A stretch of 64,000 bases of DNA, taken from the NCBI RefSeq assembly GCF_004768465.1, contig NZ_SRMF01000001.1, forward strand, positions 845,893 to 909,892, written 5' to 3'. Positions 5,261-29,500 of this stretch are shown here, piece by piece. The position numbers and the translations under genes were made by a program. The stretch's first letter is position 1, and each line of letters starts with the position of its first letter. The notes under the pieces were generated by a model. The model saw only the letters and a list, made by a program, of their open reading frames with translations. It had not been told where the DNA came from and did no database searches. The stretch is from Natronospirillum operosum. Lineage in GTDB: Bacteria; Pseudomonadota; Gammaproteobacteria; Pseudomonadales; Natronospirillaceae.

Positions 5261-5933
5261 ATCTGTGCTGTCATGCCGCGAGCTGACCAAGTCCTACCAG
5301 ATCGGGCCTGAACCGGTATGGGTATTCGATGGTCTCAATCTGGACATTCAGGCCGGGGACATGGTGTCCATTGTCGGTACCAGCGGTGCCGGCAAATCAA
5401 CCCTGTTGCATCTGATGGCAGGGCTGGATCTGCCCAGCAGCGGTGCGGTCACCGTCGATGGCGAGGATCTGAGCCGCATGAGCGAGCGTCGGCGCAGCCA
5501 GGTACGCAACGAGACGCTGGGCTTTGTGTTCCAGTTTCATCATCTGTTGCATGAATTCACCGCGCTGGACAACGTCCTGATGCCGACCCGCATTCGGCGC
5601 AAGCCCAATGCGCAGGATCGGGACTATGCACTCAGCCTGCTGGAAGGCGTGGGTGTGGCGCATCGCGCCGAGCACAAGCCTTCGGAGTTGTCGGGCGGCG
5701 AACGCCAACGCGTGGCCATTGCCCGGTCGCTGATGAACCGACCGCGTCTGGTGCTGATGGATGAACCGACCGGCAACCTGGACACCCAGACCTCCGGCCA
5801 GATTCAGGAGTTGATTCTGGGCCTCAACAAGACCGCCCAGTGCAGCTTTGTGGTGGTGACGCACAACCACGATCTTGCCGCCCGCATGCCCGTGCGCTAT
5901 CGGCTGGAGCAGGGGCGTCTGGAGGCCTACTGA
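5253..5933 (+). CDS. lolD: Lipoprotein-releasing ABC transporter ATPase
   Basis: ATPase subunit that powers lipoprotein release by the neighbouring permease. The 226 residues have Walker [10 protein letters not shown] near 43, the ABC signature [15 protein letters not shown] near 147, Walker [13 protein letters not shown] near 166 and the switch histidine in VVVTHNHD near 200. I placed the start at ATG 5253, where the MacB/LolD-type N-terminus ([10 protein letters not shown]) begins; the longer frame upstream is the out-of-frame end of lolC. The ATGA-type overlap with lolC implies co-expression. It is followed by two REP elements. Confidence 0.95.
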
Positions 5934-5952
5934 GGCGGTTGATACCGCTCAA

Positions 5953-6017
5953 TCGGGACTTGCGTCCCTCGCTACCATGAGGCACAGCTCCCTGTCGGGA
6001 CTTGCACTGCTCGCTAC
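5953..6017. repeat. Two REP elements in the same orientation
   Basis: Two minus-orientation copies of the GTAG-headed palindrome, at 5953-5975 (stem GGGAC/GTCCC intact) and 5995-6017 (one arm changed, TCGGGACTTGCACTGCTCGC), separated by about 20 bp that includes ATGAGGCACAG, also present in the repeat at 1-217. They fill the gap between lolD and comEC. The spacer sequence shared with 1-217 shows that the whole mosaic, not just the palindrome, is repeated. Confidence 0.85.
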
Positions 6018-6104
6018 GAAAAAACCTATCCCTTGGGACTGCCCACCGAAACAGGGCCCCTTGATTTAGGCTCGGGGCTGTCTTGCTGGCTCAGGGAAGA
6101 GATC

Positions 6105-8315
6105 ATGAAGCCGGATATCCATTCCTGGCGGGCCTCCTGGGGCATGGGTGGTTTTCTGCTTGGGGCGGCACTGCCGGTACTGTTCCAACCTGTCTGGTGG
6201 GCTATCGCTGCGCTGGCCGGCATTTTGGTATGGCGGTTGCGCTCGGACCTTGTTTGCGCTGCCCTGGTGGGCGTCCTGTGGACGCTGGGGGCGGTACACG
6301 GCAACGTCAGTCAGTTGCTCAGCGAACCCCGTGCGCTGGACCAGATGCCGCTGCAGATCGAACGCTGCTGGTCCTCGGACTGGTCAAGCCGCTGTCTGGT
6401 GAGACAACAGGGCGGTGGCCGCTACTACCTGAACTGGCGCACCGAGGGAACCCCAGAGCCCGGACAGACCGGTATGGCGACCGGGTCGCTGCGTCCCTGG
6501 CGAGCAACAGTCAGCCCCGGGCAGACTTCCTTTGCTCTCTGGATGCTGCGCCATCGTATTCAGGCACAGGGCCAAATAGACGACTTCGAGCAGACAGAAC
6601 CCCGCGCGCTGAACCGCTGGTTGCTCAATCTGCGGGACCGGGTTCGTCAGCGCCCGGTATCGGGTCAGGCCAGAGGCTTCTACGAGGCCCTGGTGCTGGG
6701 TGATCGAGCTGCCATGGATGCGCAGGTCAGAGGGCAGGTTGCTCGCACCCAGACACAGCACCTGCTGGCCCTGTCCGGTTTGCATATCGGCAGCCTGGCC
6801 CTGTGGGCCTACTGGATAGCAGGCTGGGTCTGGCGCCTGCACCCGGTTGGTGTGCGCCAGGACTGGCAGAAACTGGCGGCACTGGTCATTGCTGGCGGCC
6901 TGCTCTGGCTCGCATTGCCGGCAGTGAGTCTGTGGCGGGCTTTTCTGATGGCGTTGCTGCCCGGACTGGCCTGGCTGTATCGCCGCCGTCTGGCGGCCCA
7001 TCACCTGCTGCTGATCATCGGTTGTCTGATGGTCATCGGCGATCCGCTGCTGTGGCTGGACCTAGGTGCCTGGTTCAGTTGGTGGGCCACTCTGGTGCTG
7101 ATCATGCTGGCACGCCATATCGGGCACTGGCCGGGCTGGCGGCAACTGGTCGGTATCCAGTTGAGCCTGTCACTGCTGCTGGTGCCGGTGCATGCGCTCT
7201 GGTCGTTGCCCCTGTTTCCCGCCGGCATGATGCTGAACCTGCTGCTGATTCCGCTGGTCAGCTTTGTGGCGTTGCCGCTGGCCTTTCTGGCCGCTCTCGG
7301 CGTGCCGCTGGCCGCAACCGGGTTTGGCCTGGCGGCCGACCTGTGGCGGCTGTTGCTGGTCCTGTTCGATCAGCCCTGGGCCTGGTTGCCGGTACTGGAT
7401 CCGCTGCAAAGCCTGTTGCTGGCTGCGGGCTGTGCTCTGGGCCTGCTGGTTCGGGCCAGATGGATCTACTGGCTGCTGCTGATCGCGCTGGCCGGCAGTA
7501 CCTTGTGGCACCAGAGCCGCGGGCCGGCGCTGGCTCTCGGGGAGTTTGAGCTCTGGGTGCTGGATGCCGGCCAGGGGCAGGCTGCCATAGTGGAAACTGC
7601 GGCTGGCCGGGTGGTCATGGATACCGGTACCGGGCCACCGGCAGCACTGAACCTGAGTCAGACCCTGTTGCGCTGGTTCTGGTGGCGCCCCCGCGGGGAC
7701 TGGACCACGCTGGTGCTGTCGCGCCCGGGCCGGTTTACCGAGGGCGGCCTGGGGTCACTGGCCACCATGGGGTTCGCGCCCCAGCAGGCGTTCTCGGCCC
7801 GACCACCCAGGTTCTGGCCAGCCGACTGGTCGGAGCCTCGTTTTTGCGACCTGAATGTGCAGTGGCAGCAGGGCGGGGTGCAGTTCCGGTTTCTGCGTCC
7901 GCAGCCAGGCTATCAACCCGAGTCGACCACCGAAGGCGCCTGCATGCTTGAAGTGCGCAGCCCGCATGGGGCCGTGGTGATCTCCGGCGGGGCCGGGGCC
8001 ACCACCGAGCATGGCCTGCTGTTGCGACAGCAACCGGCCCCGGTCGATGTGCTGGTCAGTAGTCGGGGCGGTACGGCGGCGGCCAATACCCGGGCCTGGC
8101 TGGAGGCGCTGCGGCCGCGCCGGGTGGTCCACAGTGCGCAGCGGAACCCTGCCGGTGAGGTTCAGGCCCGCATCGCCGCCGTGGAGGCGGAAGCTCATTG
8201 CACCTGTGGCCGGCACAGTTGGTGGTACCGGTTCACGGAATCGGGATTAATGGAGCAGAGCTATGGCCTAAGGTTGCTCCCATGGCTTAGAATCCCAGCG
8301 CATCAACATACTTAA
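6105..8315 (+). CDS. comEC: ComEC/Rec2 DNA-uptake channel with degenerate metallo-beta-lactamase domain
   Basis: Polytopic inner-membrane protein of the ComEC/Rec2 family, the channel that carries transforming single-stranded DNA into the cytoplasm. 736 residues from ATG 6105 (AGGGAAGAG upstream); an in-frame TTG at 6033 is less likely because it lies against the REP. N-terminal helices, then the competence domain with the LLALSGLHIGSLALWAYW signature near 220, many helices, and a C-terminal metallo-beta-lactamase-like fold from about 480. That last domain has lost its ligands: the expected SHxDxDHxGG reads SRPGRFTEGG near 537, the GD of TGD reads GGAG near 626, and PHHGS reads SSRGGT near 650. 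Channel function is plausible; the nuclease role attributed to this domain is probably lost. Confidence 0.9.
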   Translation: MKPDIHSWRASWGMGGFLLGAALPVLFQPVWWAIAALAGILVWRLRSDLVCAALVGVLWTLGAVHGNVSQLLSEPRALDQMPLQIERCWSSDWSSRCLVRQQGGGRYYLNWRTEGTPEPGQTGMATGSLRPWRATVSPGQTSFALWMLRHRIQAQGQIDDFEQTEPRALNRWLLNLRDRVRQRPVSGQARGFYEALVLGDRAAMDAQVRGQVARTQTQHLLALSGLHIGSLALWAYWIAGWVWRLHPVGVRQDWQKLAALVIAGGLLWLALPAVSLWRAFLMALLPGLAWLYRRRLAAHHLLLIIGCLMVIGDPLLWLDLGAWFSWWATLVLIMLARHIGHWPGWRQLVGIQLSLSLLLVPVHALWSLPLFPAGMMLNLLLIPLVSFVALPLAFLAALGVPLAATGFGLAADLWRLLLVLFDQPWAWLPVLDPLQSLLLAAGCALGLLVRARWIYWLLLIALAGSTLWHQSRGPALALGEFELWVLDAGQGQAAIVETAAGRVVMDTGTGPPAALNLSQTLLRWFWWRPRGDWTTLVLSRPGRFTEGGLGSLATMGFAPQQAFSARPPRFWPADWSEPRFCDLNVQWQQGGVQFRFLRPQPGYQPESTTEGACMLEVRSPHGAVVISGGAGATTEHGLLLRQQPAPVDVLVSSRGGTAAANTRAWLEALRPRRVVHSAQRNPAGEVQARIAAVEAEAHCTCGRHSWWYRFTESGLMEQSYGLRLLPWLRIPAHQHT

Positions 8316-8333
8316 AGCGCAGGGAGAATATCA

Positions 8334-8960
8334 GTGTTCGAGATCGTCAAGGCCGGTGGCTGGCTTATGGTCCCCATTATCATCTGTTCGATCCTCGCCA
8401 TCGCCATCACTATCGAACGCTTCTGGGTGTTGCGGGCCGATCGGGTGGCCCCGCGCGACCTGCTGCCAGCAGTCTGGAAACAGTTGAAGGACAATCGCCT
8501 GTCGGCGGAGTACCTGAAGAACATGCGGCGTGAGACCTGGCTCGGCAGCATTCTGGCGGCGGGCCTGCAACAGAGCCGTATGGGCCGTGAAGCCATGAAG
8601 GACAGCGTGCAGCAGCAGGCCAGCCATGTGGCCCATGAGATGGAGCGTTTTCTGAACACCCTGGGCACCATTGCACTCATTTCGCCGCTGCTGGGGCTGC
8701 TGGGCACTGTACTGGGCATGATCGAGGTGTTTACCGCCATCATGCTGCAGGGCACCGGCAATGCCGGCGTGCTGGCCGGCGGTATTTCCCAGGCGCTTAT
8801 TACCACGGCAGCGGGCCTGCTGGTGGCCATACCCGCCATGATCTTCTACCGGGCACTGCGCCGCCGCGTCGACACCATCCTGATCATGATGGAGCAGGAC
8901 TGCGTCAAGCTGATCGATGCGCTGACGGCCGAACCCCAAAACGCCCAGTCCGGGCAATGA
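8334..8960 (+). CDS. exbB: ExbB/TolQ/MotA-family proton channel subunit
   Basis: Inner-membrane proton-channel subunit that, with ExbD, powers TonB- or Tol-like outer-membrane processes. 208 residues with three membrane segments: about 8-28, then a pair at about 110-135 and 150-180 containing the conserved GLLGTVLGMIEVF and LITTAAGLLVAIPAMI motifs. Start GTG 8334 behind AGGGAGAATATCA. The exbD-like gene follows after 7 bp. A pair in this position (between comEC and lpxK) is conserved in pseudomonads. No tonB or tol genes are nearby, so the partner it energises is unknown. Confidence 0.92.
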   Translation: MFEIVKAGGWLMVPIIICSILAIAITIERFWVLRADRVAPRDLLPAVWKQLKDNRLSAEYLKNMRRETWLGSILAAGLQQSRMGREAMKDSVQQQASHVAHEMERFLNTLGTIALISPLLGLLGTVLGMIEVFTAIMLQGTGNAGVLAGGISQALITTAAGLLVAIPAMIFYRALRRRVDTILIMMEQDCVKLIDALTAEPQNAQSGQ

Positions 8961-8967
8961 GGCAGTC

Positions 8968-9390
8968 ATGAGTCTCAATTTCCGCCGTGCCCAGGAAGAC
9001 GATGTCAGCATCAACCTGACGCCATTGATTGATGTGGTCTTTCTGTTGCTGATTTTCTTTATGGTGACGACCACCTTTACGCGTGAAACCCAGCTCGAGG
9101 TCGAATTGCCGCAGGTACAGTCGGAACAGGCTGTCACCGATAATTTCAGAGTCGATGTTGTCATTGATGCCAGTGGCAATATAGAGATCAATGGCGAAAT
9201 GCTGATCAACAGCCAGGCAGATACGCTGCGCCGGGCGCTGGACACCGTGCTGGATGCCGGCAGTCAGCAGGTGGTGGTCATCACCACTGACCGGCAGACG
9301 CCGTCTCAGGCCCTGCTGACCGTAATGGATGTAGTCGGGCGCATGGGACACAGCCGGATTGCGTTTGCGGCCCAGATCGATGCAGACTGA
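8968..9390 (+). CDS. exbD: ExbD/TolR-family protein
   Basis: 140-residue partner of the preceding channel protein. One N-terminal membrane helix at about 20-42 carries the essential aspartate in LTPLIDVVFLLLIFFM, followed by a periplasmic domain with the repeated D-x-x-G-x-I-E-I-N-G strand pattern (IDASGNIEINGEML). The N-terminal FRRAQEDDVSINLTP segment is typical of ExbD/TolR. It lies 7 bp after exbB and 18 bp before lpxK in a tight run of genes to murB. Confidence 0.93.
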   Translation: MSLNFRRAQEDDVSINLTPLIDVVFLLLIFFMVTTTFTRETQLEVELPQVQSEQAVTDNFRVDVVIDASGNIEINGEMLINSQADTLRRALDTVLDAGSQQVVVITTDRQTPSQALLTVMDVVGRMGHSRIAFAAQIDAD

Positions 9391-17667: not shown

Positions 17668-18720
17668 ATGGCAGATAACAACGAAACCTGGGACCGCCGT
17701 CCACGCCCCGAAGGTGACAGCTCCGGTCAGAACAACCCTGGCAATAGCCAGGACAGCCCGGCCAGGGTCTCGCGCCGCGAAGCCAAGGAATGGCAACTGA
17801 TCGAGAAGATCGTGCTGACCCACAGCAACGAACTGAAGCGCAGCCGCCGCTGGGGCATCCTGTTCAAGTCGCTGACCTTTATCTATCTGTTTGCATTGCT
17901 GTACTACCTGGTCATCGCGCCTGGCGTCATGACCCGGGGGCCGGTACAGACCGGCGGCCATATTGCCGTGGTCGAAATGCACGGCCAGATCGCGGACAAC
18001 TGGGACATCTCCATGGAGACCCATCGCGAGCCGCTGCTGGATGCCTTTGCGCATCCGGATACTCAGGCTGTGGTGCTGGATATCAACTCGCCCGGCGGCA
18101 GCCCGCTGCAGGCGCATCTGCTGTATGAACTGATCAATGACCTCAAGGCCGACTACCCGGACATCCCGGTGTACGCCGTAGTTGGCGAGATGGCAGCCAG
18201 TGGTGGCTACTACATTGCCGCTGCCGCCGATGAAATCTATGCCGGCGGCTCCAGCCTGGTCGGTTCCATCGGCGTGATTTCCGGCAGCTTTGGCTTTGAC
18301 CGCGCGCTGGAAGAACTGGGTGTGGACCGCCGCATCTACACGGCCGGTGAAAACAAGGCCTTCCTGGACATGTTCTCGCCCGAGAACGAGGAGGCCGTGG
18401 CGCACTGGCAGACCGTACTCGACAGCGTGCACGAGCAGTTCCTGGAAGCCGTCATTGCCGGCCGGGGCGATCGACTGGATGACAGCAACCCCGATGTGCT
18501 CAGCGGCTTCCTGTGGTCCGGCCGGCAGGCTGTCGACAATGGACTGATCGATGGCATCGAATCCATCTACAGCCTGGCCAACCGGCTGGAGATCGACGAA
18601 TTGCTGTATTTCGATCCGAAACGGGACCCCTGGCGCCAGATTCTGGACGACCTGGGCATCGCCGTGGGGCAGGGTATTGGCCAGGCCATACAGGCCGACC
18701 GCTGGTTCGAACTGCGCTGA
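17668..18720 (+). CDS. sppA: S49 family signal peptide peptidase-like protease (SppA/SohB)
   Basis: Inner-membrane serine protease of family S49, thought to cut leftover signal peptides. 350 residues: hydrophilic N-terminus, one membrane helix at about 68-92, periplasmic catalytic domain. The nucleophile lies in GEMAASGGYYIAAAADEI near 174 and the likely lysine base in AGENKAFLDMF near 229. DINSPGGSPLQAHLLYELI near 130 is a family motif. Length fits the short single-domain SppA form. The ATG follows CAAAGGAAG. It is the last gene before the accessory block. Confidence 0.9.
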   Translation: MADNNETWDRRPRPEGDSSGQNNPGNSQDSPARVSRREAKEWQLIEKIVLTHSNELKRSRRWGILFKSLTFIYLFALLYYLVIAPGVMTRGPVQTGGHIAVVEMHGQIADNWDISMETHREPLLDAFAHPDTQAVVLDINSPGGSPLQAHLLYELINDLKADYPDIPVYAVVGEMAASGGYYIAAAADEIYAGGSSLVGSIGVISGSFGFDRALEELGVDRRIYTAGENKAFLDMFSPENEEAVAHWQTVLDSVHEQFLEAVIAGRGDRLDDSNPDVLSGFLWSGRQAVDNGLIDGIESIYSLANRLEIDELLYFDPKRDPWRQILDDLGIAVGQGIGQAIQADRWFELR

Positions 18721-18941
18721 AGCACCAACTGGCTCAAGCCTGACTTGCCCGGACTGCAGCTTGCAAATCCGGGCGGGTCAGCTATACCTAGAGTCAGGTC
18801 CGAACAGGCTCCACCCCAAGGACCCCACAAACCGAAGGCACAAACCGAAAGATTGGACAGCCACCTCACCCGGCCGGGCGGTAGCGTGCCCAGACTCCTT
18901 GTAGCGAGGCACGCAAGTGCCGATCTGGGGCCCTTGGCCGC
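18721..18941. other. Intergenic boundary with hairpin and REP
   Basis: Just after sppA a long inverted repeat (CTGAC-TT-GCCCGGA at 18740-18753, TCCGGGC-GG-GTCAG ending near 18782) may act as transcript end although no T-run follows. A REP copy lies at 18901-18923, with the stem changed on both sides to GGCAC-GCAA-GTGCC. I see no gene here. Confidence 0.6.
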
Positions 18942-19283
18942 GCACACCACGACTACCGCACCTCGAGCGACGCTACCTTGTGACTGACGCCCGAAGAGCT
19001 GCTTCGGCGCTTTCTGCTGCATGTCTTGCCCAAGGGCTTCATGCGCATCCATCACTATGGTTTTCTGGCCAATGCGGTCAAACGGCGCTGCCTGTCGCTG
19101 ATCCGCCGGCAACTGCCGGGCCAGCAGAGGCAAAAAGACAAGATCACGTCGGCGTCGACGGACAGGCCTGGCGCGCACTGCCCGAATTGCGGCCACCAGC
19201 CGGTGGCGTGTCTGGGTGAGGATCAACCTAGTGGGCACCGGATGCCCAGGCACAGAGTCACACAGAGACTGGATAGCAGTTAG
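18942..19283 (+). pseudogene. IS91-family transposase C-terminal relic
   Basis: The frame reads HHDYRTSSDATL, a TGA stop at 18981, then TPEELLRRFLLHVLPKGF, RIHHYGFLAN and a cysteine motif CPNCG. The combination DYR...FLLHVLPKGF.RI.HYGFLAN is the C-terminal signature of IS91/IS801/ISCR-type HUH (Y2) rolling-circle transposases. The N-terminal catalytic part with the two tyrosines is missing and the remaining frame has a stop, so it is dead. It is the first sign of mobile DNA at the left end of the accessory block. Confidence 0.8.
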
Positions 19284-19490
19284 CAGCCGACAGAACGGAA
19301 TCAAAACCCTTGCTTTGGGGTGGGCCCGAGGGGTGGCCTTGTCGCAGGGGCAGCAGGGGTGTACGACCGGACAAGGTCTTCTCGTCGTGGATGGCGAGCG
19401 TGTTCGACGGCACAGTCGGACCATACCCCTCGCTGACGAGCAGGGACGCCCGAGGCAAAAAAAATTCCCTAGACAACGAGGTCAGGCGGC
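19284..19490. other. Non-coding stretch between IS91 relic and attC
   Basis: About 200 bp with no supported gene. A minus-strand open frame (19258-19476) overlaps the relic and has no recognisable domain. Its position suggests the 3' end of the IS91-type element, but no origin or terminus could be identified by eye. An A8 tract lies at 19457-19464. Confidence 0.4.
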
Positions 19491-19537
19491 GTTCAACATG
19501 CGGTTGTAGCGGCGCTGCGCTGCCGTATAACCGCTTA
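19491..19537 (+). other. Putative integron attC recombination site
   Basis: GTTCAAC (fits RYYYAAC) at 19491 and GTTGGGC (fits GTTRRRY) at 19531 bracket an imperfect palindrome: GCGGTT-G-TA-GCGGC on the left pairs with GCCG-TA-T-AACCGC on the right, leaving unpaired bases as attC folds do. At 47 bp it is shorter than usual (about 57-140 bp). The gene immediately downstream, chrA, would be the first cassette after this site. Confidence 0.6.
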
Positions 19538-19599
19538 TTTGTTGGGCGGCAAAGCTAGGCAGCCACCAGAGCATTACACACACTATCAGGGAGTAAAAC

Positions 19600-20901
19600 T
19601 TGCGCGAAGTTAGTTTCAAAGAGGCGCTGGCCGTTTGGATTCGAATTGGGTTTCTGAGTTTTGGCGGACCAGCGGGGCAAATTGCCTTGATGCATAGGAT
19701 TCTAGTCGATGAAAAAAAATGGCTGGATGAATCCCGCTTTCTGCACGCGCTCAATTACTGCATGCTCCTTCCGGGGCCGGAAGCCCAGCAGTTGGCTACC
19801 TATGTCGGATGGTTGCTGCATGGGGTAAAAGGTGGGATTGTCGCTGGCGTTCTATTCATCCTTCCGGGTGCAGTCGCCATCTTTGCGCTTTCCTGGTTGT
19901 ACGTATCTCTTGGTGATCTGGCGGTGGTTGAAGGCGTCTTTTTTGGCTTGAAGGCTGCTGTGCTCGCTATCGTCGTACAGGCATTGATGCGCATTGGCCG
20001 CCGAGCACTTAAAAATACATTGATGCCGGTATTGGCGGTGGCGGGATTCATCGCCTTGTTCGTATTTGACTTGCCGTTTCCGCTCGTGGTTCTGGGCGCG
20101 GGGGCCATTGGCTATACCGTCGCAAAGAGGATGGCGATGCAGGGTAGACTCCAATCGGAGCCTGATATCAACACGGAAACTGTCGTTCGAGCTGGAACCA
20201 AACGAGCGGCCGTGGTGTGCTTGCTGCTGTGGCTGCTGACCGTGGGTGGTTTGCTGGCATTATTAGGCTACGACAACGTATTCTCCCAAATCGCAGTTTT
20301 CTTCTCGAAGATGGCGACGGTAACATTCGGCGGCGCGTATGCGGTACTTGCTTATGTCGCCCAGCAGGGGGTAGAAAACTTCCAGTGGCTTGAGCCCGGC
20401 GAAATGCTAGAGGGGCTTGGCCTGGCCGAAACCACGCCAGGTCCCCTCATTCTGGTAACCCAGTTTGTTGGGTTCCTTGCCGCTTACCGAGAGGCCGCTA
20501 TTGAGCCTAGTATTTTTTATGCATCAATGGGGGCATTGCTGACTCTCTGGGTGACGTTTCTGCCTTGCTTCCTTTGGATTTTTGCCGGGGCACCTTATGT
20601 GGAGAAGCTGCGAGCAAATCAATCACTTTCCACAGCTTTGGCGGCAATCACGGCCGTTGTGGTCGGTGTGATCGCAAATCTGGCTTTATGGTTTGCTATC
20701 AATGCGTTATTTGCAGAGCAGCACCGAATTTCAGGATTCGGCGTGGATATGAGTTTGCCTGTTCCAGGGAGCGTGGATCTTCCAATGTTGGCTTTATCAG
20801 CGGTCGCCTTTGTTCTGGTGTTCAGGCTGCGGTTGGGAATTCTGCCCTTGCTCGGCATTTCGTCAATGCTCGGTGCGCTGTGGGTTCTTTGGATCGCATG
20901 A
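19600..20901 (+). CDS. chrA: Chromate efflux transporter, ChrA family
   Basis: Inner-membrane CHR-superfamily protein that exports chromate. 433 residues, the full two-domain long form: each half carries the family motif, FLSFGGPAGQIALMH plus LLPGPEAQQLATYVGW in the N-terminal half (about 15-68) and VTFGGAYAVLAY plus LAETTPGPLILVTQFVGF in the C-terminal half (about 240-295). About ten membrane segments. Start TTG 19600 behind CAGGGAGTAAAAC, a good ribosome site. Base composition is a little lower in GC than the backbone. An attC lies 62 bp upstream and a GCCCAAC half-site 22 bp downstream, so it looks like a gene cassette. No chrB is present. Confidence 0.9.
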   Translation: MREVSFKEALAVWIRIGFLSFGGPAGQIALMHRILVDEKKWLDESRFLHALNYCMLLPGPEAQQLATYVGWLLHGVKGGIVAGVLFILPGAVAIFALSWLYVSLGDLAVVEGVFFGLKAAVLAIVVQALMRIGRRALKNTLMPVLAVAGFIALFVFDLPFPLVVLGAGAIGYTVAKRMAMQGRLQSEPDINTETVVRAGTKRAAVVCLLLWLLTVGGLLALLGYDNVFSQIAVFFSKMATVTFGGAYAVLAYVAQQGVENFQWLEPGEMLEGLGLAETTPGPLILVTQFVGFLAAYREAAIEPSIFYASMGALLTLWVTFLPCFLWIFAGAPYVEKLRANQSLSTALAAITAVVVGVIANLALWFAINALFAEQHRISGFGVDMSLPVPGSVDLPMLALSAVAFVLVFRLRLGILPLLGISSMLGALWVLWIA

Positions 20902-21187
20902 ATCGGTCGAACCTTTTCAGGGCGCCCAACACATATGAGACGTCTCGGCACAACAGGCAATAACGATTTTTTTTTGGCCGCGCCAAGCGGCCACTATCAA
21001 AACCATGAGCGAGCGCATCTACTTCGTCAGCCTTCGTGGGCTGTCGCACCAGGTGCTTACAGCAAACATATATTGAAGCTCACTTATTGTGGTTCTCACC
21101 ACTGCCTGACCGGTTCGTTCCCTCCTGTCGGTCAGGTTACAAAATTCCACTTATCACCGCGATGGTTTTTAGGGGGGATTACCTTCT
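20902..21187. other. Spacer between chrA and beta-lactamase with attC half-site and inverted repeats
   Basis: GCCCAAC at 20924-20930 would be the 5' end of the chrA cassette's attC, but no matching GTTRRRY follows, so the site is truncated or rearranged. Other structures: palindrome GAGACGTCTC at 20937; T9 then hairpin GGCCGC-GCCAA-GCGGCC at about 20976-20992; inverted repeat CCTGACCG (21105-21112)/CGGTCAGG (21129-21136). An AGGGGGGA ribosome-site-like run precedes the beta-lactamase start. No convincing gene. Confidence 0.5.
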
Positions 21188-22072
21188 ATGTTTTGGATAA
21201 TATTAGTGAAATTTAAAGTAGTTTTTTCTTGCGCTGTTTTATTTTCTTCCTCATATTTGATTGCCGATGAAGGTCTTCTGATTAGTGAGATCGAACGTAT
21301 TGAAAGCCATCTTGATGCACGCGTCGGCTTTGCCGCATACGACACGGAATCAGACATGAGATGGGAGTACAACTCCGAGCAACGCTTTGCACTAGCTAGC
21401 ACATTTAAAACTCTAGCATGTGCGGCACTATTGGCGCGAGTAGACGCAGGAAGCGAACAGCTGACAAGGAGCATAAGTGTTTCATCATCGGATCTGGTAA
21501 CTTACTCGCCAGTTTTAGAAGAGTATGCTGACAACCGTAATATAAATCTTTCAGAGCTTTGCGAAGCTACGATGACAATAAGTGATAACACAGCGGCCAA
21601 CCTTATTTTACAGAGTTTAGGCGGGCCAGAAAGTGTCACAGCATTTGCTAGACAGCTAGGCGATGATGTTACGCGTTTGGACCGCTGGGAAACAGAGCTT
21701 AATGAAGCAGTGCCGGGTGATGAGCGAGATACAACGACACCAAATGCAATGATTGGCAACCTTGAGCAGTTGCTACTTGGTAATGTTTTAACAGAAGAGT
21801 CTATAAATTTATTAAAGACGTGGTTGATTAATAATCAAGTTGCAGATGATTTGTTTCGGTCGGTCAAACCCGATGGCTGGATCATTGGCGATAGAACTGG
21901 CGCAGGTGGATTTGGATCTAGAGCTATTACTGCAGTTATTTGGCCTCCCGAACGAAAACCGATCTTCGTAGCATTCTATATAACAGAAACAACAGCCTCA
22001 TTCGAAGAAAGAAATGCTGCGATAGAACAGCTTGGGCGTGTTCTTATGGAATCAATAGAGTCAAGCGAATAA
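21188..22072 (+). CDS. bla: Class A beta-lactamase, RTG-type carbenicillinase-like
   Basis: Periplasmic serine beta-lactamase hydrolysing penicillins. 294 residues: hydrophobic signal peptide (1 to about 26), STFK with the nucleophile near residue 70, SDN in ISDNTAANL near 136, omega loop RWETELNEAVPGDERDTTTP with the conserved glutamate near 172, and RTG (DRTGAGGFGSRA) near 237 in place of the usual KTG. RTG/RSG here is the hallmark of CARB/PSE carbenicillinases, and the C-terminal ITAVIWPPERKPIF-type run matches that branch. The gene is much more AT-rich than its surroundings and uses rare codons (ATA, TTA, AGA), so it was acquired. The exact spectrum cannot be told from sequence. Confidence 0.93.
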   Translation: MFWIILVKFKVVFSCAVLFSSSYLIADEGLLISEIERIESHLDARVGFAAYDTESDMRWEYNSEQRFALASTFKTLACAALLARVDAGSEQLTRSISVSSSDLVTYSPVLEEYADNRNINLSELCEATMTISDNTAANLILQSLGGPESVTAFARQLGDDVTRLDRWETELNEAVPGDERDTTTPNAMIGNLEQLLLGNVLTEESINLLKTWLINNQVADDLFRSVKPDGWIIGDRTGAGGFGSRAITAVIWPPERKPIFVAFYITETTASFEERNAAIEQLGRVLMESIESSE

Positions 22073-22151
22073 GTGCATGACAAGGCGCAGCAGTTCGCCA
22101 CTGAACCTGCCCCGATAAAACGGGCACCCCAAAATTGCCCGAAGGTGTCCC

Positions 22152-22382
22152 ATGCCAAAGTCCAACCTGGCCAAGAAAACCCGTCAGTACAGCCTTGAAT
22201 TCAAGTGCAAGACCGTTGAAATGATGCTCAACCCGGAAGTCCTGATCAAGGACGTCGCCTAGCGCATGGGCATCCATCTGTTCATGCTGTCACGGTGGCG
22301 CAAGGAATACAGAGAAGGCCTGCTGAGGAGAACCAGAACCGTGGCCCCGAAGAAGCCCCGCAAGCCCAAGCCAGAACAATAG
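22152..22382 (+). pseudogene. IS3-family orfA with in-frame stop
   Basis: Reads MPKSNLAKKTRQYSLEFK, then after about 36 codons an in-frame TAG (22260-22262), then RMGIHLFMLSRWRKEYREG and a lysine/proline-rich tail to a TAG at 22382. This is the helix-turn-helix OrfA of IS3-type elements. The stop makes it non-functional unless read through. Confidence 0.8.
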
Positions 22383-22474
22383 GATAGCGCTGTGGCAGCC
22401 CCTCTCTGTCAACCTAGTTGTCCATTCGGCGATTTCGCCGTTTAGCTCCTCGAGAGGGTGCTTTGGACAACGCT

Positions 22475-22732
22475 ATGCCACGCTATTCAAAAGAGCGGAA
22501 AGCCGACGTGCTCAGCAGCATGAACCGACCAGGGCACTGTACTGACAACGGCTATGCCGAATCGTTTTTACACTCGCTGAAGGCCGAATTAATACATGGC
22601 ACAACCTATAACACCGACCATGGGCTGTACACCGCAGTCCGTGACTACATCAATGACTTCTACAACACGCAGCGCCTGCATTCTGGCATCGGCTACCGAA
22701 GCCCGATAGAGTATGGGCAGACCGTTGCCTAA
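22475..22732 (+). pseudogene. Fused IS fragments: foreign orfA start joined to orfB end
   Basis: Starts MPRYSKERKADVLSS, the N-terminus of a different IS3-type orfA, then after about 16 residues switches to HCTDNGYAESFLHSLKAE and YINDFYNTQRLHSGIGYRSP, the end of the IS3 integrase (orfB) with the last catalytic glutamate region. The first two catalytic aspartates are gone. A TTGTCC...GGACAA pair at about 22419-22472 just before the ATG may mark the end of the second element. Confidence 0.7.
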
Positions 22733-22760
22733 CAGAAATGTGTCCGATTTATCGGGGCGA

Positions 22761-22827
22761 GATCACAGCCTTTCCGTTGCGGCTTCGCCTGCACTCCAAA
22801 GCTGCGCGTGTTGGGGACGTTGTGTTG
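22761..22827 (+). other. attC-like repeat, right part (left part at 22075-22107)
   Basis: Ends GTTGTGT (22819-22825), close to the attC core. Its body CACAGC...CTTTCC-TTGCG...TCCAA-GC-GCGCGTG aligns throughout with the repeat at 23310-23384. The presumed left arm lies across the IS at 22075 (GCATGACAAGGCGCAGC, one base off GCATAAC), and GCGCAGC there pairs with GCTGCGC here. So the beta-lactamase cassette's attC seems to be split by the IS insertion. Confidence 0.55.
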
Positions 22828-22840
22828 ATTGGGGCCAGCG

Positions 22841-23305
22841 ATGCTCTCAAAAGTCATAAGTGGTGGACAAACCGGCGCCGACCGGGCGGCTCTTGACGCC
22901 GGTCTAGAGGCAGTCTTCCCAATTGGAGGTAGTTGCCCAGTGGGGCGAATGGCGGAAGATGGGCCGATCAGTAGCGCATATACTTTGACAGAAATTGGTG
23001 GCGGCTACCGACAGCGTACTAAGCAAAATGTCGCGAGTTCTGATGGTACCGCAATTTTTTATGAATCTTATGTGCAAGGCGGCACTGAAACTACGGTTCT
23101 CTTTTGTATTCGGCAAGGTAAGCCCTACAAGTTGATTGATATTGAGCTAGTTGAGCCCGATCGCGCAGCAGAGCTTTTGACTTCTTTCGTCCGTCAGTAC
23201 AGCGTCGATGTTTTGAATGTGGCAGGACCCAGATCAAGCAGTTGCCCTAGAATTTATGACTATGTGAAGCAGGCCATCAGCCTGGTCATACAAAAATCAA
23301 CATAG
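22841..23305 (+). CDS. SLOG-superfamily protein (YpsA-related, putative molybdenum carrier)
   Basis: 154 residues from ATG 22841. The N-terminal VISGGQTGADRAALDAGLE is the nucleotide/ligand-binding motif of the cpYpsA-related SLOG family (often annotated putative molybdenum carrier), followed by the usual GGSCPVGRMAEDGPI and the late NVAGPRSSSCPRIYDYV motif. SLOG proteins bind nucleotide-derived ligands and are frequent in integron cassettes and defence islands. The stop codon falls inside the 5' arm of the downstream attC, as in gene cassettes. The actual substrate is unknown. Confidence 0.75.
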   Translation: MLSKVISGGQTGADRAALDAGLEAVFPIGGSCPVGRMAEDGPISSAYTLTEIGGGYRQRTKQNVASSDGTAIFYESYVQGGTETTVLFCIRQGKPYKLIDIELVEPDRAAELLTSFVRQYSVDVLNVAGPRSSSCPRIYDYVKQAISLVIQKST

Positions 23306-23384
23306 CCAGTGCAGGCACAGCGACGTCCTTTCCATTGCGCCTTTGGCTCCATTCCAAGGCCGCGCGTGCTGCAAACGTTATGTT
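23299..23384 (+). other. attC-like recombination site after the SLOG gene
   Basis: The left arm AACATA-GCCAG-TGCAG-G-CAC-A-GCG pairs with the right arm, whose complement reads AACATA-ACGTT-TGCAG-CAC-GCG, giving a long imperfect hairpin with bulged bases. The right end CGTTATGTT carries the GTTATGT core typical of Vibrio-like attC sites. It aligns closely with the repeat at 22761-22827, so both belong to one attC family, different from the one at 19491. Confidence 0.65.
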
Positions 23385-23462
23385 CCATTGCGACCCTTCT
23401 TGCCAACATCACAGCTCAGGAGTGCACTTGGACGTACCATTAAGCGTACATAAGTGATTGCC

Positions 23463-23684
23463 ATGTCAAAAATTCGCGTCGATGAAGATATTCGCCCCCT
23501 GTCTGAGTTTCGGGCGGGAGTCGCTACATTTGTGAAGCAGATCGATGAAACCCGTCGCCCTATGGTGTTAACTCAGAGGGGGCGCGGAGTTGCCGTGCTG
23601 ATGGACATCCAGGAATACGCGAGAATGGAAGAGCGCCTGGAGCTGCTGGAGGATGTTGAATGGTCAGCTACTGCGGATATCTGA
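23463..23684 (+). CDS. Phd/YefM-family antitoxin, orphan
   Basis: 73 residues from ATG 23463 (a GTG at 23454 would add three). RPLSEFRAGVATFVKQIDETRRPMVLTQRGRGVAVLMDIQEYARM is the Phd/YefM DNA-binding fold: N-terminal dimeric domain and a C-terminal toxin-neutralising helix (about 50-73). Direct GTAC repeats in GGACGTAC-N6-GCGTACATAAG just upstream could be its operator. No RelE, ParE or Doc toxin follows in the next 500 bp, so it is orphaned or belongs to a broken pair. It lies directly after an attC, so it is a likely cassette gene. Confidence 0.85.
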   Translation: MSKIRVDEDIRPLSEFRAGVATFVKQIDETRRPMVLTQRGRGVAVLMDIQEYARMEERLELLEDVEWSATADI

Positions 23685-23811
23685 GTTTGGTGATGCAGTG
23701 GCTAAAGAGCCCCAGGCGGTCATAAAAGCATTGAGTGCATAGCGCAGATGCTGACAGTCCAATTCTTGTGCCCTTTGTGGAATCAGAGTCCAATCCGAGG
23801 AGGCCGGCGCA

Positions 23812-24060
23812 ATGTCTACATCCGAGTGCAATGACATGTTGCCACCCTGGCTTCAGTATCCTGACATTCCGCTGGGGTCCATGGGTTGGCGCATGGGCCC
23901 GGGCGAAGAGTACTGGTATCAGTTTGTCGCCTGGCTCGGTGAGCTCAGTGCGGCGGAACGAGAAGCCTACAAGAGGCGGCACCCCAGGCCGGAAAGCTGG
24001 GCGGTATTCTGGCCCTACGTCCCTGAACAGCTGGCGGCCTTTTTTGACACGGAGGCATGA
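23812..24060 (+). CDS. Small conserved-looking hypothetical protein
   Basis: 82 residues, acidic, with many tryptophans and prolines (PPWLQYPDIPLGSMGWRMGPGEEYWYQF; then RRHPRPESWAVFWPYV). No family that I can name. A strong ribosome site (CCGAGGAGG, 9 bp before ATG) and a codon pattern like the backbone support it as real. No signal peptide or membrane helix. It lies between the orphan antitoxin and a MarR gene, at the right edge of the cassette region. Confidence 0.65.
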   Translation: MSTSECNDMLPPWLQYPDIPLGSMGWRMGPGEEYWYQFVAWLGELSAAEREAYKRRHPRPESWAVFWPYVPEQLAAFFDTEA

Positions 24061-24107
24061 AATGGCGGGCCGCAGGGTAGAGCAGGGGCGGCAGTCTTGA
24101 TTGATGC

Positions 24108-24140
24108 TTGACCAGTCAATCATTTCATGTATATGATTGA
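24108..24140 (+). promoter_or_regulatory. Promoter overlapped by MarR-type operator
   Basis: TTGACC (24108-24113), 18 bp, TATGAT (24132-24137). The inverted repeat TCAATCAT (24116-24123)/ATGATTGA (24133-24140) covers the spacer and the -10. Binding here would block the promoter of the following MarR gene, so autorepression is likely. Confidence 0.7.
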
Positions 24141-24170
24141 GCTATCAACTATCAAGCAAGGATCTTCCGC

Positions 24171-24590
24171 ATGCCCGTTTCATCTCAACCGGCGCTGCTG
24201 CTCAAGCTGGTCGCTCTGCACTCGAAGATACAGCGGCAACTGGCCGGTCAGCTGTCATTTCATGGGATCAGTTTTACCGAGTATCTGGTACTGCGGCAGT
24301 TGCATGAAGCACCCGGCAACAAACTGCGCCGGGTCGATCTCGCGCAACGTGTCGGGCTGACCGCATCAGGCGTCACCCGCTTGCTGAACCCCATGCAGAA
24401 AACCGGCCTGATCGACAAGGAAGATGCGGCGCGCGATGCCAGGGTCAGCCTGGTGACGCTGACCAGCGCCGGTGCAACCATCTTCAAGGATGCCGATGTT
24501 TCGTTCACCGAGGTTGCACAGTCATTCTTTGAGCCATTGGCGGCTGAAGATCAGCGTGACCTGCTCCGAATGACAAGTGCCCTGATCTGA
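24171..24590 (+). CDS. MarR-family transcriptional regulator
   Basis: 139 residues. Winged helix-turn-helix: recognition region LRRVDLAQRVGLTASGVTRLLNPMQKTGLI near 50-80 and the wing DAARDARVSLVTLTSAG near 83-100; the dimerisation helices lie at both ends. MarR proteins are ligand-released repressors. An operator-like palindrome overlaps its own promoter. The next gene is co-directional but about 180 bp away with its own promoter, so the target may be only itself or lie elsewhere. Confidence 0.92.
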   Translation: MPVSSQPALLLKLVALHSKIQRQLAGQLSFHGISFTEYLVLRQLHEAPGNKLRRVDLAQRVGLTASGVTRLLNPMQKTGLIDKEDAARDARVSLVTLTSAGATIFKDADVSFTEVAQSFFEPLAAEDQRDLLRMTSALI

Positions 24591-24705
24591 CGCTGCGAAC
24601 AACCACGGCGCTCAACGGTGTCAGGGCTATCGACATGCTGTTCGATATTCTGTGATTCATGTCGTATAAGAGACCTGTTACACAAGGCATTGAATCGTTT
24701 GAAAT

Positions 24706-24734
24706 TTGACCGCCACCCGGCTTCAGACTAGTTT
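24706..24734 (+). promoter_or_regulatory. Possible promoter of the signalling operon
   Basis: TTGACC (24706-24711), 17 bp, TAGTTT (24729-24734), 37 bp before the GTG start of the diguanylate cyclase/phosphodiesterase gene. The -10 is weak, so this is tentative. Confidence 0.4.
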
Positions 24735-24770
24735 CTGACTAATAGCAGACGCCAGGACTGAGGGTATAAG

Positions 24771-26858
24771 GTGAGCTCAACGTTAAGTGCCAGCCAGGCA
24801 GATTCCAGAAATGTGACGCTCATGTCCGGCCGGGAGTCTGATTCAGACGGTTCTGTGACGGCACATCATCAACTGAGTATTCTCCTGATTGAGGACAACC
24901 CGGGTGATGCCGATCTGTGTGAGTCCTATCTGCATGAGGCCTTCGGTCCGCGCATTGAAGTTGTTCAGCTTGGCCGGCTCAGCCAGGCAGAAGCTATGCT
25001 GGAACAGCGGCCCTTCGATATAGTCCTGCTGGATCTGGGGTTGCCGGACAGTTCTGGCATTGACTCGCTCATCAGTCTGAGATTCAGTGTTCCCTCCGTA
25101 CCCATCATCGTATTGACCGGTAATCGGGACAGTCGCATCGGCATCTGCGCGATTCGTGAGCATGCACAGGATTTCTGCGCCAAGCAGGACCTGAGTCCGG
25201 GAATGCTCTATCAGTCCATTCGCCATGCCATGGAGCGTCACCGTCTGCAGGAACAGTATTTGCGGGTTCTTGAAACGAACCCTGATGGCATGATTGTCCT
25301 TGACCGGCAGGACTGCCTTCTTTTTGCCAATCAGGCGGCTTGTCATCTGCTGGATATCAGTTTGCCTCAGGACATTGGGCATCGACTGTCGCTGGATATC
25401 ATGCGGGCAGATGGTACAGAGCTGGCATTGCCTGCAGAGCGCTATGTAGAAATCCGCACGGCACACCTGGATTGGAACAGATCACCTGCAACGCTGATTG
25501 CCTGCCATGATATTACGGCGCGCAAGGAGGCCGAGCAGAAACTTGTGCAGATGGTGCAGGTAGACCAACTGACTGGTCTCTCCAGCCGCAGTTATTTCTT
25601 CGACTATTTGCAAAGGCTGCTGCCGCATGCTGACCGGGAAGGCGGCACAATTGCCATACTGTTCATCGACCTTGATCGTTTCAAGCACGTGAACGACACC
25701 CTGGGTCATGTTGTGGGCGATGAGTTGTTGCGTCTGGCCGGGGAGCGACTCCGCGCCAACTGCCGCCGCAGTGACTTTGTCGCGCGCATGGGCGGAGATG
25801 AATTTGCCATTGCACTGCCGGATGTGAAAGGCCCTGATGATGGTGCTCATATGGCAGAGAAGCTGATTAAAGCGTTCCGACAGCCCATAGACATTGGTGC
25901 ATCCAGTGTCAGTATTGGTCTGAGTATCGGGATTGCCACCTACCCGCATTGCGGCACTGATGCTCAAGGGCTGTACGCTGCTGCTGACACGGCCATGTAC
26001 CAGGCCAAGACTCAGGGCCAGAACCACTATCAGTTCTTTTCCGAGAAACTGCAGCATGAGGTGGAGGTTCGTTTGCACCGAGAGCAGATGGTGCGCCGTG
26101 CTGTTGCAGAGGACCGGCTCTGGCTGGCATTCCAGCCCCAGGTGTGCGCCAGAACCGGAAAAACAATGAGTTTCGAAGCCTTGTTGCGCTGGCCGAAAGG
26201 CTGGGGCACGCCGTTGTCACCGTCAGAGTTTGTCCCGGTGCTGGAAGACACAGGCCTGATCGAGCAGGTGGGCTTTCAGGTCCTGATGCAAGCTGCGGTA
26301 TTTGCAAAAGAACTGGAGCGTGTAACAGGTGCTGCATACCGAATGGCGGTCAATGTGTCCATGCGCCAGCTATATGGTTCCGGGCTTTATGAGCAGGTGG
26401 CACAAGTGCTCGCTGCCACTAATCTGGCCCCGGATCGCCTCGAACTGGAGCTCACAGAGAGCGCGACCATGGTTGATCTGGAAACCACGGTCAAGACACT
26501 GACTTCTCTGCGCCAACTGGGCATAACGATCGCCATCGACGACTTTGGAACCGGCTACTCTTCGCTGAACTATCTGCGCCGTCTTCCTGTTGATGCGCTG
26601 AAGATTGATCGAAGCTTTGTCACCGAGATAGGCAACAACAGAGAGACGGAAGCGATTCTGCACAGTCTGCTGAGCCTGGCGCGAGCGCTACGCCTGAAAG
26701 TCATTGCCGAGGGGGTGGAAAATGCCCGGCAGGAGAAATTCCTGCGCAAGGCGGGCTGTGATCTGTTGCAGGGTTATCGGATCTGCAGGCCAGCGCCCAC
26801 CGGGACCATCCTCGACTGGTTGGAACAGCAGAAAGATTCCTCTGAGGAACATTCATGA
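24771..26858 (+). CDS. Response regulator with PAS, GGDEF and EAL domains
   Basis: 695-residue cytoplasmic signalling protein making and/or breaking cyclic di-GMP. Receiver domain about 35-155 (LLIEDNPGD acidic pair; phospho-acceptor in LLDLGLPD near 87), a short PAS-like segment about 165-255, GGDEF domain with intact MGGDEF near 342, and EAL domain with intact FEALLRW near 468, LELTES and IDDFGTGYSS near 590. The I-site RxxD is present as RRSD a few residues before MGGDEF. Both catalytic sites look intact, so activity may be switched by phosphorylation. GTG start. It overlaps the kinase gene by 4 bp (ATGA), forming a three-gene operon. Confidence 0.93.
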   Translation: MSSTLSASQADSRNVTLMSGRESDSDGSVTAHHQLSILLIEDNPGDADLCESYLHEAFGPRIEVVQLGRLSQAEAMLEQRPFDIVLLDLGLPDSSGIDSLISLRFSVPSVPIIVLTGNRDSRIGICAIREHAQDFCAKQDLSPGMLYQSIRHAMERHRLQEQYLRVLETNPDGMIVLDRQDCLLFANQAACHLLDISLPQDIGHRLSLDIMRADGTELALPAERYVEIRTAHLDWNRSPATLIACHDITARKEAEQKLVQMVQVDQLTGLSSRSYFFDYLQRLLPHADREGGTIAILFIDLDRFKHVNDTLGHVVGDELLRLAGERLRANCRRSDFVARMGGDEFAIALPDVKGPDDGAHMAEKLIKAFRQPIDIGASSVSIGLSIGIATYPHCGTDAQGLYAAADTAMYQAKTQGQNHYQFFSEKLQHEVEVRLHREQMVRRAVAEDRLWLAFQPQVCARTGKTMSFEALLRWPKGWGTPLSPSEFVPVLEDTGLIEQVGFQVLMQAAVFAKELERVTGAAYRMAVNVSMRQLYGSGLYEQVAQVLAATNLAPDRLELELTESATMVDLETTVKTLTSLRQLGITIAIDDFGTGYSSLNYLRRLPVDALKIDRSFVTEIGNNRETEAILHSLLSLARALRLKVIAEGVENARQEKFLRKAGCDLLQGYRICRPAPTGTILDWLEQQKDSSEEHS

Positions 26859-28090
26859 CCGACCAGACAGGCAGTGTCAAAAAAAAGCATCTGGCCCGCA
26901 GCGCTGAGCACCAGCACCTGTCTGCCGGCTGTTCCCCGCAGGAAGCAGAATTGGAGGCAGAGCGTCGCCGCTACCGGGATATCATAGAAGCTTCGCCTTC
27001 GGCCTTGATTCTGGTTGGGCCTGACGGAGGTATTGTGCTGGTGAACCGCGCCACCGAAAGGCTTTTCGGTTACAGCCGGGACGAGTTGCTGGGCAATCCG
27101 GTCGAGATGCTGATCCCGACGTCTGTGCGCACTGGTCACAAGAAATATCGCAAGAGCTACTTTGCTGAGCCTCAGCCCAGAATCATGGGGCAGGGCAGAG
27201 ATCTTTACGGGCTGAGCAAGAATGGCGAGGAGGTTCCGATAGAGGTTGGCCTGACACCGATTCAAATGCCCAACGGGATTCATGCACTCAGCGCCATCAT
27301 TGACCTGACCCGACGCAAGCAGGCCGAAGATGCCCTGGCACTCCAGGCTGATGAACTGGCACGTTCCAACGCGGAGCTGGAACAGTTTGCCTATGTCGCC
27401 TCTCATGACCTGCAGGAGCCTCTGCGCATGGTGCGCAGTTATACCGAGCTGATGCAGAAGCGTCTGCCTGATGATCTCGATGCAAGCGCCCGCAAGGCCA
27501 TGAAATATGTGGTTGAAGGGGCAGAGCGAATGCAGCTGTTGATCGACGATCTGCTCCTGTATTCCCGCGTTGGGCGAGCAGACCTGGCGATTGACCGGGT
27601 AGATGTCAATGCGGTGGTGGATCATGTGATCAACCTGGTCAGTGTGAGTCTTGCGGAACAGCCGGGTGCCTGTATTACCCGTGATGAACTGCCGACAATA
27701 CGGGCATCCGAATCCATGCTGGTACAGCTGTTCCAGAATTTGATTTTCAATGGCCTCAAGTTTCACGGCGAAGAGCCGGCGCGGGTCCATGTCAGCTGCA
27801 AGGAGCTGAAAGACCGCTGGGATTTCTCGGTTCAGGACAATGGCATTGGCATTGATGCAAAGTATGCAGAACGGATTTTTCAGGTCTTTCAACGCTTGCA
27901 CGAACGAGAGCGTTATCCGGGGACCGGCATCGGTCTGGCCATCGCCAAGCGCATTGTCGAGCGCCACGGCGGTGAAATAGGGTTCAAGTGCAAAGTGGGA
28001 AAAAGGGGCACCCGGTTTTACTTCAAGTTGCCCAAGGATCCTGCTGGTAGAAGGGGGGGCTCCCATGAAACAGCAGTCGAGACCGATTGA
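26855..28090 (+). CDS. PAS-domain sensor histidine kinase
   Basis: 411 residues without membrane segments, so a soluble sensor. PAS domain about 40-155 ([17 protein letters not shown] start, [11 protein letters not shown]), coiled linker, HisKA with phospho-accepting histidine in [12 protein letters not shown] near 183, and ATPase domain with [10 protein letters not shown] (N box), DNGIGID (G1) and [12 protein letters not shown] (G2). The HisKA type matches the family common in phytochrome-like and small-regulator (Rcp1-like) pairs. Flanked by two receiver proteins with overlapping genes, so it probably phosphorylates one or both. The ligand of the PAS is unknown. Confidence 0.92.
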
Positions 28091-28517
28091 AATCCTTCTG
28101 GTGGAAGATAATCCGGCAGACGTGGATCTGACGCTGGAAAGCTTTGCCGAGATCAGCACCCGCAATCGACTGCACCCGGTCAAGGATGGCGAGGAAGCTC
28201 TGCGCTTTCTGCGCCAGCAGGGAGAATATACCAACGCTGTCCGACCCGACATGATTATGCTGGACCTGAACCTGCCGCGCATGGATGGCCTCGAGGTACT
28301 GGAAATCATAAAGAGTGATCCGGAGCTCAAAACCTTGCCGGTGCTTGTGCTGACCTCATCGCATTCGCAGAAAGACATTCTCGCCAGTTACAGCCTGCAC
28401 GCCAATTGCTACCTGACCAAACCGCTCGGACTGGACCGGTTCTACCAGATTGCACGCGCTGTAGAGTCATTCTGGTTCGACCTGGTGGCACTGCCCAGGA
28501 CAGAACGTCCGGGTTGA
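28065..28517 (+). CDS. Single-domain response regulator, Rcp1-like
   Basis: 150 residues, a receiver domain only: acidic pair in [10 protein letters not shown] near 12, phospho-acceptor in [13 protein letters not shown] near 66, and KPL (CYLTKPLG) near 118. It has the extended loop typical of Rcp1-type regulators paired with PAS or phytochrome kinases. It overlaps the kinase gene by 26 bp. With no output domain it may pass phosphate on or bind a partner, perhaps tuning the GGDEF-EAL protein of the same operon (inference). Confidence 0.92.
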
Positions 28518-28678
28518 GAAATGTCGCCCATAGACACCGTTCTGTTGGCACAGTAGCCAACTTCCATGCTCTATCAGGCTTCGCTAGCCGATGCTAGAAT
28601 GCGGTCGCTGTGTATTGTCCAAGCCGCATTTCCCGAGAACAGGTTTGTACAGCGCCCTGTCGAGCAAGGAGAATCTTC

Positions 28679-29134
28679 ATGGGTATAGCGATTGCTCTGC
28701 ATACTCTGGCCGCAGTGATCTGGGTCGGTGGCATGTTTTTCGCCTACATGGCGATGCGACCAGCGGTCGTGGAGACTGTGGAGCCTGCTGAGCGCGGGCT
28801 GTTGTGGCATCGAACACTGAACCGTTTCTTTCTGTGGGTCTGGGTTTCGATCGCTGTGCTTTTGCTGACCGGCTACTGGATGGTGTTCAGCGTCTTTGGA
28901 GGCATGGCTGGTGCCGGGTGGCATATCCATCTGATGCAGGGCCTGGGTATCGTAATGATGCTGGTCTTTCTGCATGTCTATTTCGCGCCATTTCGGCGCT
29001 TGCGGCTGGCCATAGCCGACAGCAATCCCGAGGAAGCAGGCCGGCGGGTAGGCCAGATTCGCAAGCTGGTGGCGTTCAATCTGGTTCTGGGGGTGATTGT
29101 CGTGCTGGTCGGTTCCGGGGGACGTTTTTTCTGA
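28679..29134 (+). CDS. CopD-domain membrane protein
   Basis: 151 residues, four predicted membrane helices (about 3-24, 46-70, 80-105, 128-148). The N-terminal ALHTLAAVIWVGGMFFAYMAMRP is the CopD/YcnJ-type signature with conserved histidine, and HIHLMQGLG and LHVYFAPFRRL follow. CopD proteins are linked to copper handling, but this is the short form and no CopC or copper enzyme is near, so the function is uncertain. ATG 28679 follows AAGGAGAAT. An inverted repeat ACAGAACG/CGTTCTGT (28500-28545) lies upstream at the end of the previous operon. Confidence 0.8.
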   Translation: MGIAIALHTLAAVIWVGGMFFAYMAMRPAVVETVEPAERGLLWHRTLNRFFLWVWVSIAVLLLTGYWMVFSVFGGMAGAGWHIHLMQGLGIVMMLVFLHVYFAPFRRLRLAIADSNPEEAGRRVGQIRKLVAFNLVLGVIVVLVGSGGRFF

Positions 29135-29149
29135 AGCAAAAGGGATTTT

Positions 29150-29500
29150 ATGAATTTATCGCTGCTTACGTCATTGCCCGTCATGGGCGCGCTCATGGTA
29201 GGGGCGACAGTGGTCGGCATTGCCTGGGCTCTGGTAGTGATTCTGACCAGTGATGACCCGCTGGCGTTGATACTGGTCCCCTTGATCGTCGCGCCGTTTG
29301 CCGTGCCGCTTCTTCTGGGCACCTTCCTGTGGCTGGGGCATGGCTGGGCCCTGATGGCGCTGCGGATAACCCTGGTACTGCTGATGGCCTGGGCCCTGTT
29401 TCTGGACCGGGCCTACGCGCTGAACCTGTTCGTTGTACTGCCCTTGATGAACTATGTGTTCGTCTTCTATGTGGCCTGGCTGTTGCTGTCGTTTGCCTGA
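29150..29500 (+). CDS. Small membrane protein of unknown function
   Basis: 116 residues, almost entirely hydrophobic, with four predicted membrane helices (about 10-32, 40-62, 68-85, 90-114). I recognise no family. It lies 15 bp after the CopD-like gene and its stop directly abuts the start of the flavin monooxygenase, so the three are probably one transcript. Confidence 0.7.
   Translation: MNLSLLTSLPVMGALMVGATVVGIAWALVVILTSDDPLALILVPLIVAPFAVPLLLGTFLWLGHGWALMALRITLVLLMAWALFLDRAYALNLFVVLPLMNYVFVFYVAWLLLSFA

Follow-up and report, generated by a model that had tools for sequence, protein, structure and literature searches.

A probable integron-cassette origin for a chromosomal class A β-lactamase gene of a separate R234 lineage in Natronospirillum operosum

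We analyzed a 64,000-nucleotide stretch of the Natronospirillum operosum chromosome (hereafter the window), which harbors a class A β-lactamase gene with an R234-T-G triad (bla) on the forward strand at positions 21188–22072. The uninterrupted reading frame encodes 294 amino acids, begins with a signal-peptide-like N-terminus and displays every sequence feature expected of a class A serine β-lactamase, namely S70xxK73 (here S70-T-F-K73), S130-D-N132, E166 and [KR]234-[ST]-G (here R234-T-G), in agreement with an earlier reading made from the sequence alone (the sequence-only reading), which had described the STFK, SDN, omega-loop glutamate and RTG motifs as intact. The protein scored 310.2 bits against the curated class A model NF033103 (cut-off 200) and 140 bits against PF13354 (cut-off 22). 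Its dN/dS ratio, 0.12–0.15 against three relatives, suggests a working enzyme and would reflect lasting constraint, mostly from before its capture. The product is most likely a secreted (periplasmic) penicillinase, functional by all sequence signs, that would follow the usual cycle of S70 acylation and E166 deacylation, with penicillins, including carbenicillin, as predicted substrates.

The composition of bla is foreign to its surroundings. Its GC content is 43.1%, against 61.6 ± 2.2% for 37 backbone open reading frames of the window (z = −8.4), none of which has a lower value; GC at third codon positions is 34.9%, against 71.9% in the same set, and the gene falls 4.7 standard deviations low in codon adaptation to the backbone. 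Both the GC and the codon-usage comparisons thus bear out the earlier claim that the gene is more AT-rich than the backbone and support its description as foreign low-GC DNA; its reported position amid mobile-DNA remains was likewise confirmed, in the form of IS3-family and IS110/IS1111-type remnants and attC sites. A 10.8-kb segment of the window (18715–29500) is missing in the sole same-genus genome compared, where a single small gene separates sohB (protein 95% identical) from the gene found at position 29501 of the window. That genome yielded no bla, its corresponding 20-kb stretch no attC, and the other listed members of the family gave no strong bla match. RNase E, at 72–79% identity to all 16 genomes tested, did not discriminate the host genus. 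Besides cassettes, the cargo of the 18715–29500 segment comprises genes for a MarR protein, a GGDEF-EAL protein, a histidine kinase and a response regulator.

Downstream of bla lies a short array, all on the forward strand. An intact attC site (23299–23384), which folds as such with R′ and R″ paired, was detected at 86.8 bits (E = 4e-25) by R1, a covariance model whose training set of attC sites came from other loci and left this one out. The 3′ half of another attC (22766–22826) is 79–88% identical to attC sites of Marinobacter; R1 gives 45.2 bits for 22741–22826, the left part of which is insertion sequence (IS) DNA. Between the half site and the intact one sits a cassette gene of the cpYpsA family (circularly permuted YpsA, SLOG; 22841–23305; PF12694, E = 3e-45). 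An orphan Phd/YefM antitoxin gene, of a kind typically carried by cassettes, follows at 23463–23684 (PF02604, E = 3e-16), and an 80% identical copy of it lies upstream of bla in an Idiomarina metagenome-assembled genome (MAG). Beyond the last attC, an 82-amino-acid open reading frame (23812–24060) has no Pfam match. Taken by themselves, the attC sites fold with modest z-scores (−1.8 to −1.9), and an Rfam search of the bla region returned no match. A permissive attC detector written in Python did find known sites, yet its 19 hits in the window compared with 22–26 per shuffled window; since it performed no better than on shuffled DNA, it was kept only for collecting candidates and the covariance model took its place.

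The window thus contains at least two close attC sites (the half site in 22741–22826 and 23299–23384) with no intI nearby: in the N. operosum genome, intI-like matches occur only on contigs C12 and C13, and none lies near the bla locus on C1. With attC sites and no integrase, the locus is a small CALIN. Further attC sites are found on C12, C13 and C16 of the same genome, C13 and C16 being small contigs. The C12 locus (L014, 181–9002) is an integron with a truncated intI, of which the N-terminal half remains, and attC sites on the opposite strand. A 36-bp near-identical repeat is shared between positions 9016–9050 of L014, right at the truncation point of this intI remnant, and positions 18853–18888 of the window. 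The window also carries a fragment of an IS91-type (Y2) transposase (18990–19290; PF04986, 33.8 bits).

The half site at 22766 is immediately preceded by a decayed IS3-family element (22102–22765, forward strand), recognizable by a transposase C-terminus and lying inside the attC. Pieces of it are 89–93% identical to sequence on contig C16, where two copies start exactly 27 nt past an attC R″ core (GCCTAAC in one, AGCTAAC in the other). Counting 27 nt back from the start of the window element leads to GCATGAC, 2 bp after the bla stop codon, and the segment 22075–22101 (forward strand) is thus probably the 5′ half of the attC of a bla cassette. Its R″ core is degenerate: GCATGAC has two mismatches to RYYYAAC, and a match at least as good occurs at 6.2% of window positions. 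Set against the definition of an integron cassette, a short promoterless gene with its own attC right behind it, the window offers a core-like heptamer 2 bp past the stop codon and a 3′ attC half, with a left half that is degenerate and pairs poorly with the right half when the flanks of the IS3 element are joined. Because of this degeneracy and poor pairing, we infer that the bla attC may be a hybrid produced by recombination between IS copies.

Within the order, several genomes have copies of the IS3-family lineage concerned, with ends TGATCTTGCCCC and TGAACCTGCCCC, inside attC sites, about 26–27 nt past the R″ core. Besides the window element, the lineage was noted in L099 (1401–2226 and 3499–4268), L103, L112, L113, L117, L120, L123, L137, L145, L146 and L149. 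A stronger reading, with every IS3 relative in an attC site, was discarded: of 35 flanks, 10 proved attC-like by motif, inspection by eye added a few more, and many of the pattern hits lie elsewhere. A plasmid search with the window element gave no match, and in the literature searched no attC-preferring IS3 group is reported. The bla locus would illustrate how a cassette can become stranded in a chromosome through insertion sequences that hit attC sites.

On the upstream side, a chrA-type chromate transporter gene (19600–20901, forward strand; TIGR00937, 224 bits, cut-off 171.7) has a GC content of 53.5% (z = −3.7). A candidate short attC ahead of it (19491–19547, forward strand) shows R″/R′ and arm pairing, with a fold z-score of only −1.8 and no detection by R1. 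After chrA, a candidate R″ core for its attC (GCCCAAC, 20924–20930, forward strand) abuts the end piece of an IS110/IS1111-type element (20931–21136, without assigned strand). This piece is 77% identical to the non-coding end beside an IS110 transposase in the Marinobacter locus L028, and an 82% identical copy exists in the N. operosum genome. In L028 the end of the IS110-family element is bordered by attC sequence, and the window junction mirrors the one found there, GCTTAAC followed by ACATATGAGCC, with an IS110-type end directly after an R″-like core. Insertion sequences of the IS1111-attC group, such as ISKpn4 and ISPst6, are described as targeting attC ends in PMC11187229 (with Tetu and Holmes 2008 cited therein); the window remnant resembles them in abutting a candidate R″ core, but it is reduced to about 206 bp from one end and has no transposase. 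Next comes an end fragment from a second IS3-type element (21134–21183, reverse strand), which stops 4 bp short of the ATG of bla and is 84–92% identical to an IS-like end ahead of a transposase-like frame in the same-genus genome and to a copy on contig C6. Likeness to the closest bla locus, from Aliidiomarina, resumes at about 21184. Given the R″-like junction shared with L028, the second IS3-type end and the point at which this likeness resumes, chrA is probably a cassette too, and bla has lost its own upstream region. A hairpin at 21100–21183 that had been considered as an attC was dropped when the sequence proved to consist of IS ends.

With attC sites hit by insertion sequences and the region ahead of bla erased, excision of the gene in the manner of a normal cassette has probably become impossible, and any expression would hang on chance upstream DNA. 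The gene could accordingly be an unexpressed, stranded relic of no more use to its host, an explanation that is compatible with a cassette origin and that we regard as possible, at somewhat less than even odds. IS ends have taken over the upstream region to within 4 bp of the start codon and no promoter-like site was found ahead of the gene, as such a relic would have it; against this, frame and motifs are intact, a G-rich stretch 10 nt before the ATG could act as a ribosome-binding site, and dN/dS is about 0.15, even if that value mostly records constraint from before capture.

To place the enzyme among its relatives, a tree of 89 sequences was built from plasmids and from GTDB genomes, the latter represented by the 80 top-ranking loci from a single scan. 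The window enzyme pairs with that of the Aliidiomarina MAG (85% identity) within a clade of 26 sequences (support 100/99) from Idiomarinaceae, Nitrincola, Marinospirillum, Halomonas/Vreelandella, Marinobacter and Neptuniibacter. The RTG enzymes form another clade together with Psychrobacter chromosomal genes (support 100/100), and the PSE enzymes a third; the branching order among the three is not settled by this tree. The clade of the window enzyme adds a well-supported environmental group of partly cassette-borne class A enzymes.

The sequence-only reading had taken bla for a CARB/RTG-type carbenicillinase and a possible environmental source of CARB/RTG genes, which would make it an ancestor of the clinical RTG genes. 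The triad fits, the models for the RTG and CARB/PSE/RTG families are those that score the enzyme best among named families, and CARB-16 (56.8% identity) is the nearest plasmid enzyme once an unnamed Marinobacter enzyme is set aside. Yet the scores, 341 bits against NF000284 (RTG family carbenicillinase) and 373.7 bits against NF000481 (the CARB/PSE/RTG umbrella), fall below the curated cut-offs of 600 and 430, which true members pass (CARB-16 at 699.7 in the former; CARB-16 at 464 and CARB-4 at 519 in the latter). A tree had been named beforehand as the check that could refute the assignment; it places the enzyme outside the CARB/RTG branch, and a constraint tree grouping it with RTG was rejected (AU p = 0.0006). 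As for the triad, R234 is indeed common to PSE (RSG) and RTG enzymes, but RTG occurs in most of the environmental relatives collected (57 of 89 sequences; KTG in 19, RSG in 12, KSG in 1), so that it is not diagnostic and cannot assign a family alone: an RTG triad does not by itself make an RTG carbenicillinase, tempting as that reading is. We therefore consider it very improbable that bla encodes a true RTG/CARB enzyme.

By the tests run, the enzyme is rather a cousin of the RTG carbenicillinases, outside both the RTG and the CARB/PSE families. With CARB-16 and CARB-8 it shares class A membership, the R234-T-G triad and 56.5–56.8% identity, but they occupy a separate branch, and the RTG copies of this sample lie on Psychrobacter and Acinetobacter plasmids and on Psychrobacter chromosomes, in contexts unlike that of bla. 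CARB-3 and CARB-4 are likewise class A enzymes with R234, several PSE/CARB enzymes being integron cassettes; they differ by an RSG triad, about 46–48% identity and a distant branch. Because the RTG genes group with Psychrobacter chromosomal genes (L039, L040, L041 and L044), bla is not their likely source and the Psychrobacter genes appear the likelier candidates; flanked by broken recombination sites, bla looks more like a recipient end-point than a donor.

The genomic contexts of the clade bear on how bla reached its present position. Close relatives in Marinobacter, in Neptuniibacter and on a conjugative plasmid are plain cassettes ending in TAAAGYATAACC plus an attC, and in two cases a complete intI lies alongside. 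The Aliidiomarina gene (sp. PBR18_bin40, L016), nearest in the tree, is preceded by an attC and a toxin-antitoxin-like pair and followed by an attC-like remnant; its locus differs from that of the window by a GC content of 48% and by the absence of a visible IS3 element in this remnant. Several other relatives, from Nitrincola, Marinospirillum and Halomonas/Vreelandella, have no attC directly after bla. Together with the degenerate left half-site in the window, these would suit an arrival by some other route, bla being merely beside cassette and IS debris and the attC sites belonging only to the downstream genes. That explanation seems unlikely to us: it leaves aside that the bla stop codon lies only 2 bp ahead of a core with the fixed 27-nt spacing to the IS, that the nearest relative is likewise placed between an attC and an attC-like remnant, and that cassettes carry the gene in the sister Marinobacter lineage.

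The best explanation, to which we give a probability of about 0.8, is that bla encodes a class A penicillinase of its own R234 lineage and arrived as an integron cassette in an array that was then decayed by insertion sequences. This lineage, distinct from RTG and CARB/PSE, would have its home in haloalkaliphilic and marine gammaproteobacteria; bla would have entered the chromosome along with neighboring cassettes; and IS110-type and IS3-type elements would subsequently have landed in the attC sites and removed the region upstream of the gene. A broader proposition, for which we see about equal chances either way, is that this is an unnamed third lineage of R234 class A β-lactamases of haloalkaliphilic gammaproteobacteria, which has entered cassettes more than once and already sits on a conjugative plasmid beside qnrVC1, and that the attC in the window was broken by an IS3-family lineage preferring attC at a fixed position.

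The best plasmid relative is WP_091702541.1 (65.9% identity), encoded on the plasmid NZ_CP152381 of Marinobacter sp. SBY-1 and also found in Marinobacter persicus. It belongs to the same 26-sequence clade, has the RTG triad and is encoded by a gene cassette. In contrast to the chromosomal window copy with its broken attC, it has a proper attC in an integron with a complete intI and, on a conjugative plasmid, flanks qnrVC1 as a pair of copies. Having one member in such a setting makes the clade worth watching. On this plasmid (NZ_CP152381.1), which comes from aquaculture, the locus at 4158–8879 (L003) comprises intI, qnrVC1 and two identical class A bla cassettes.
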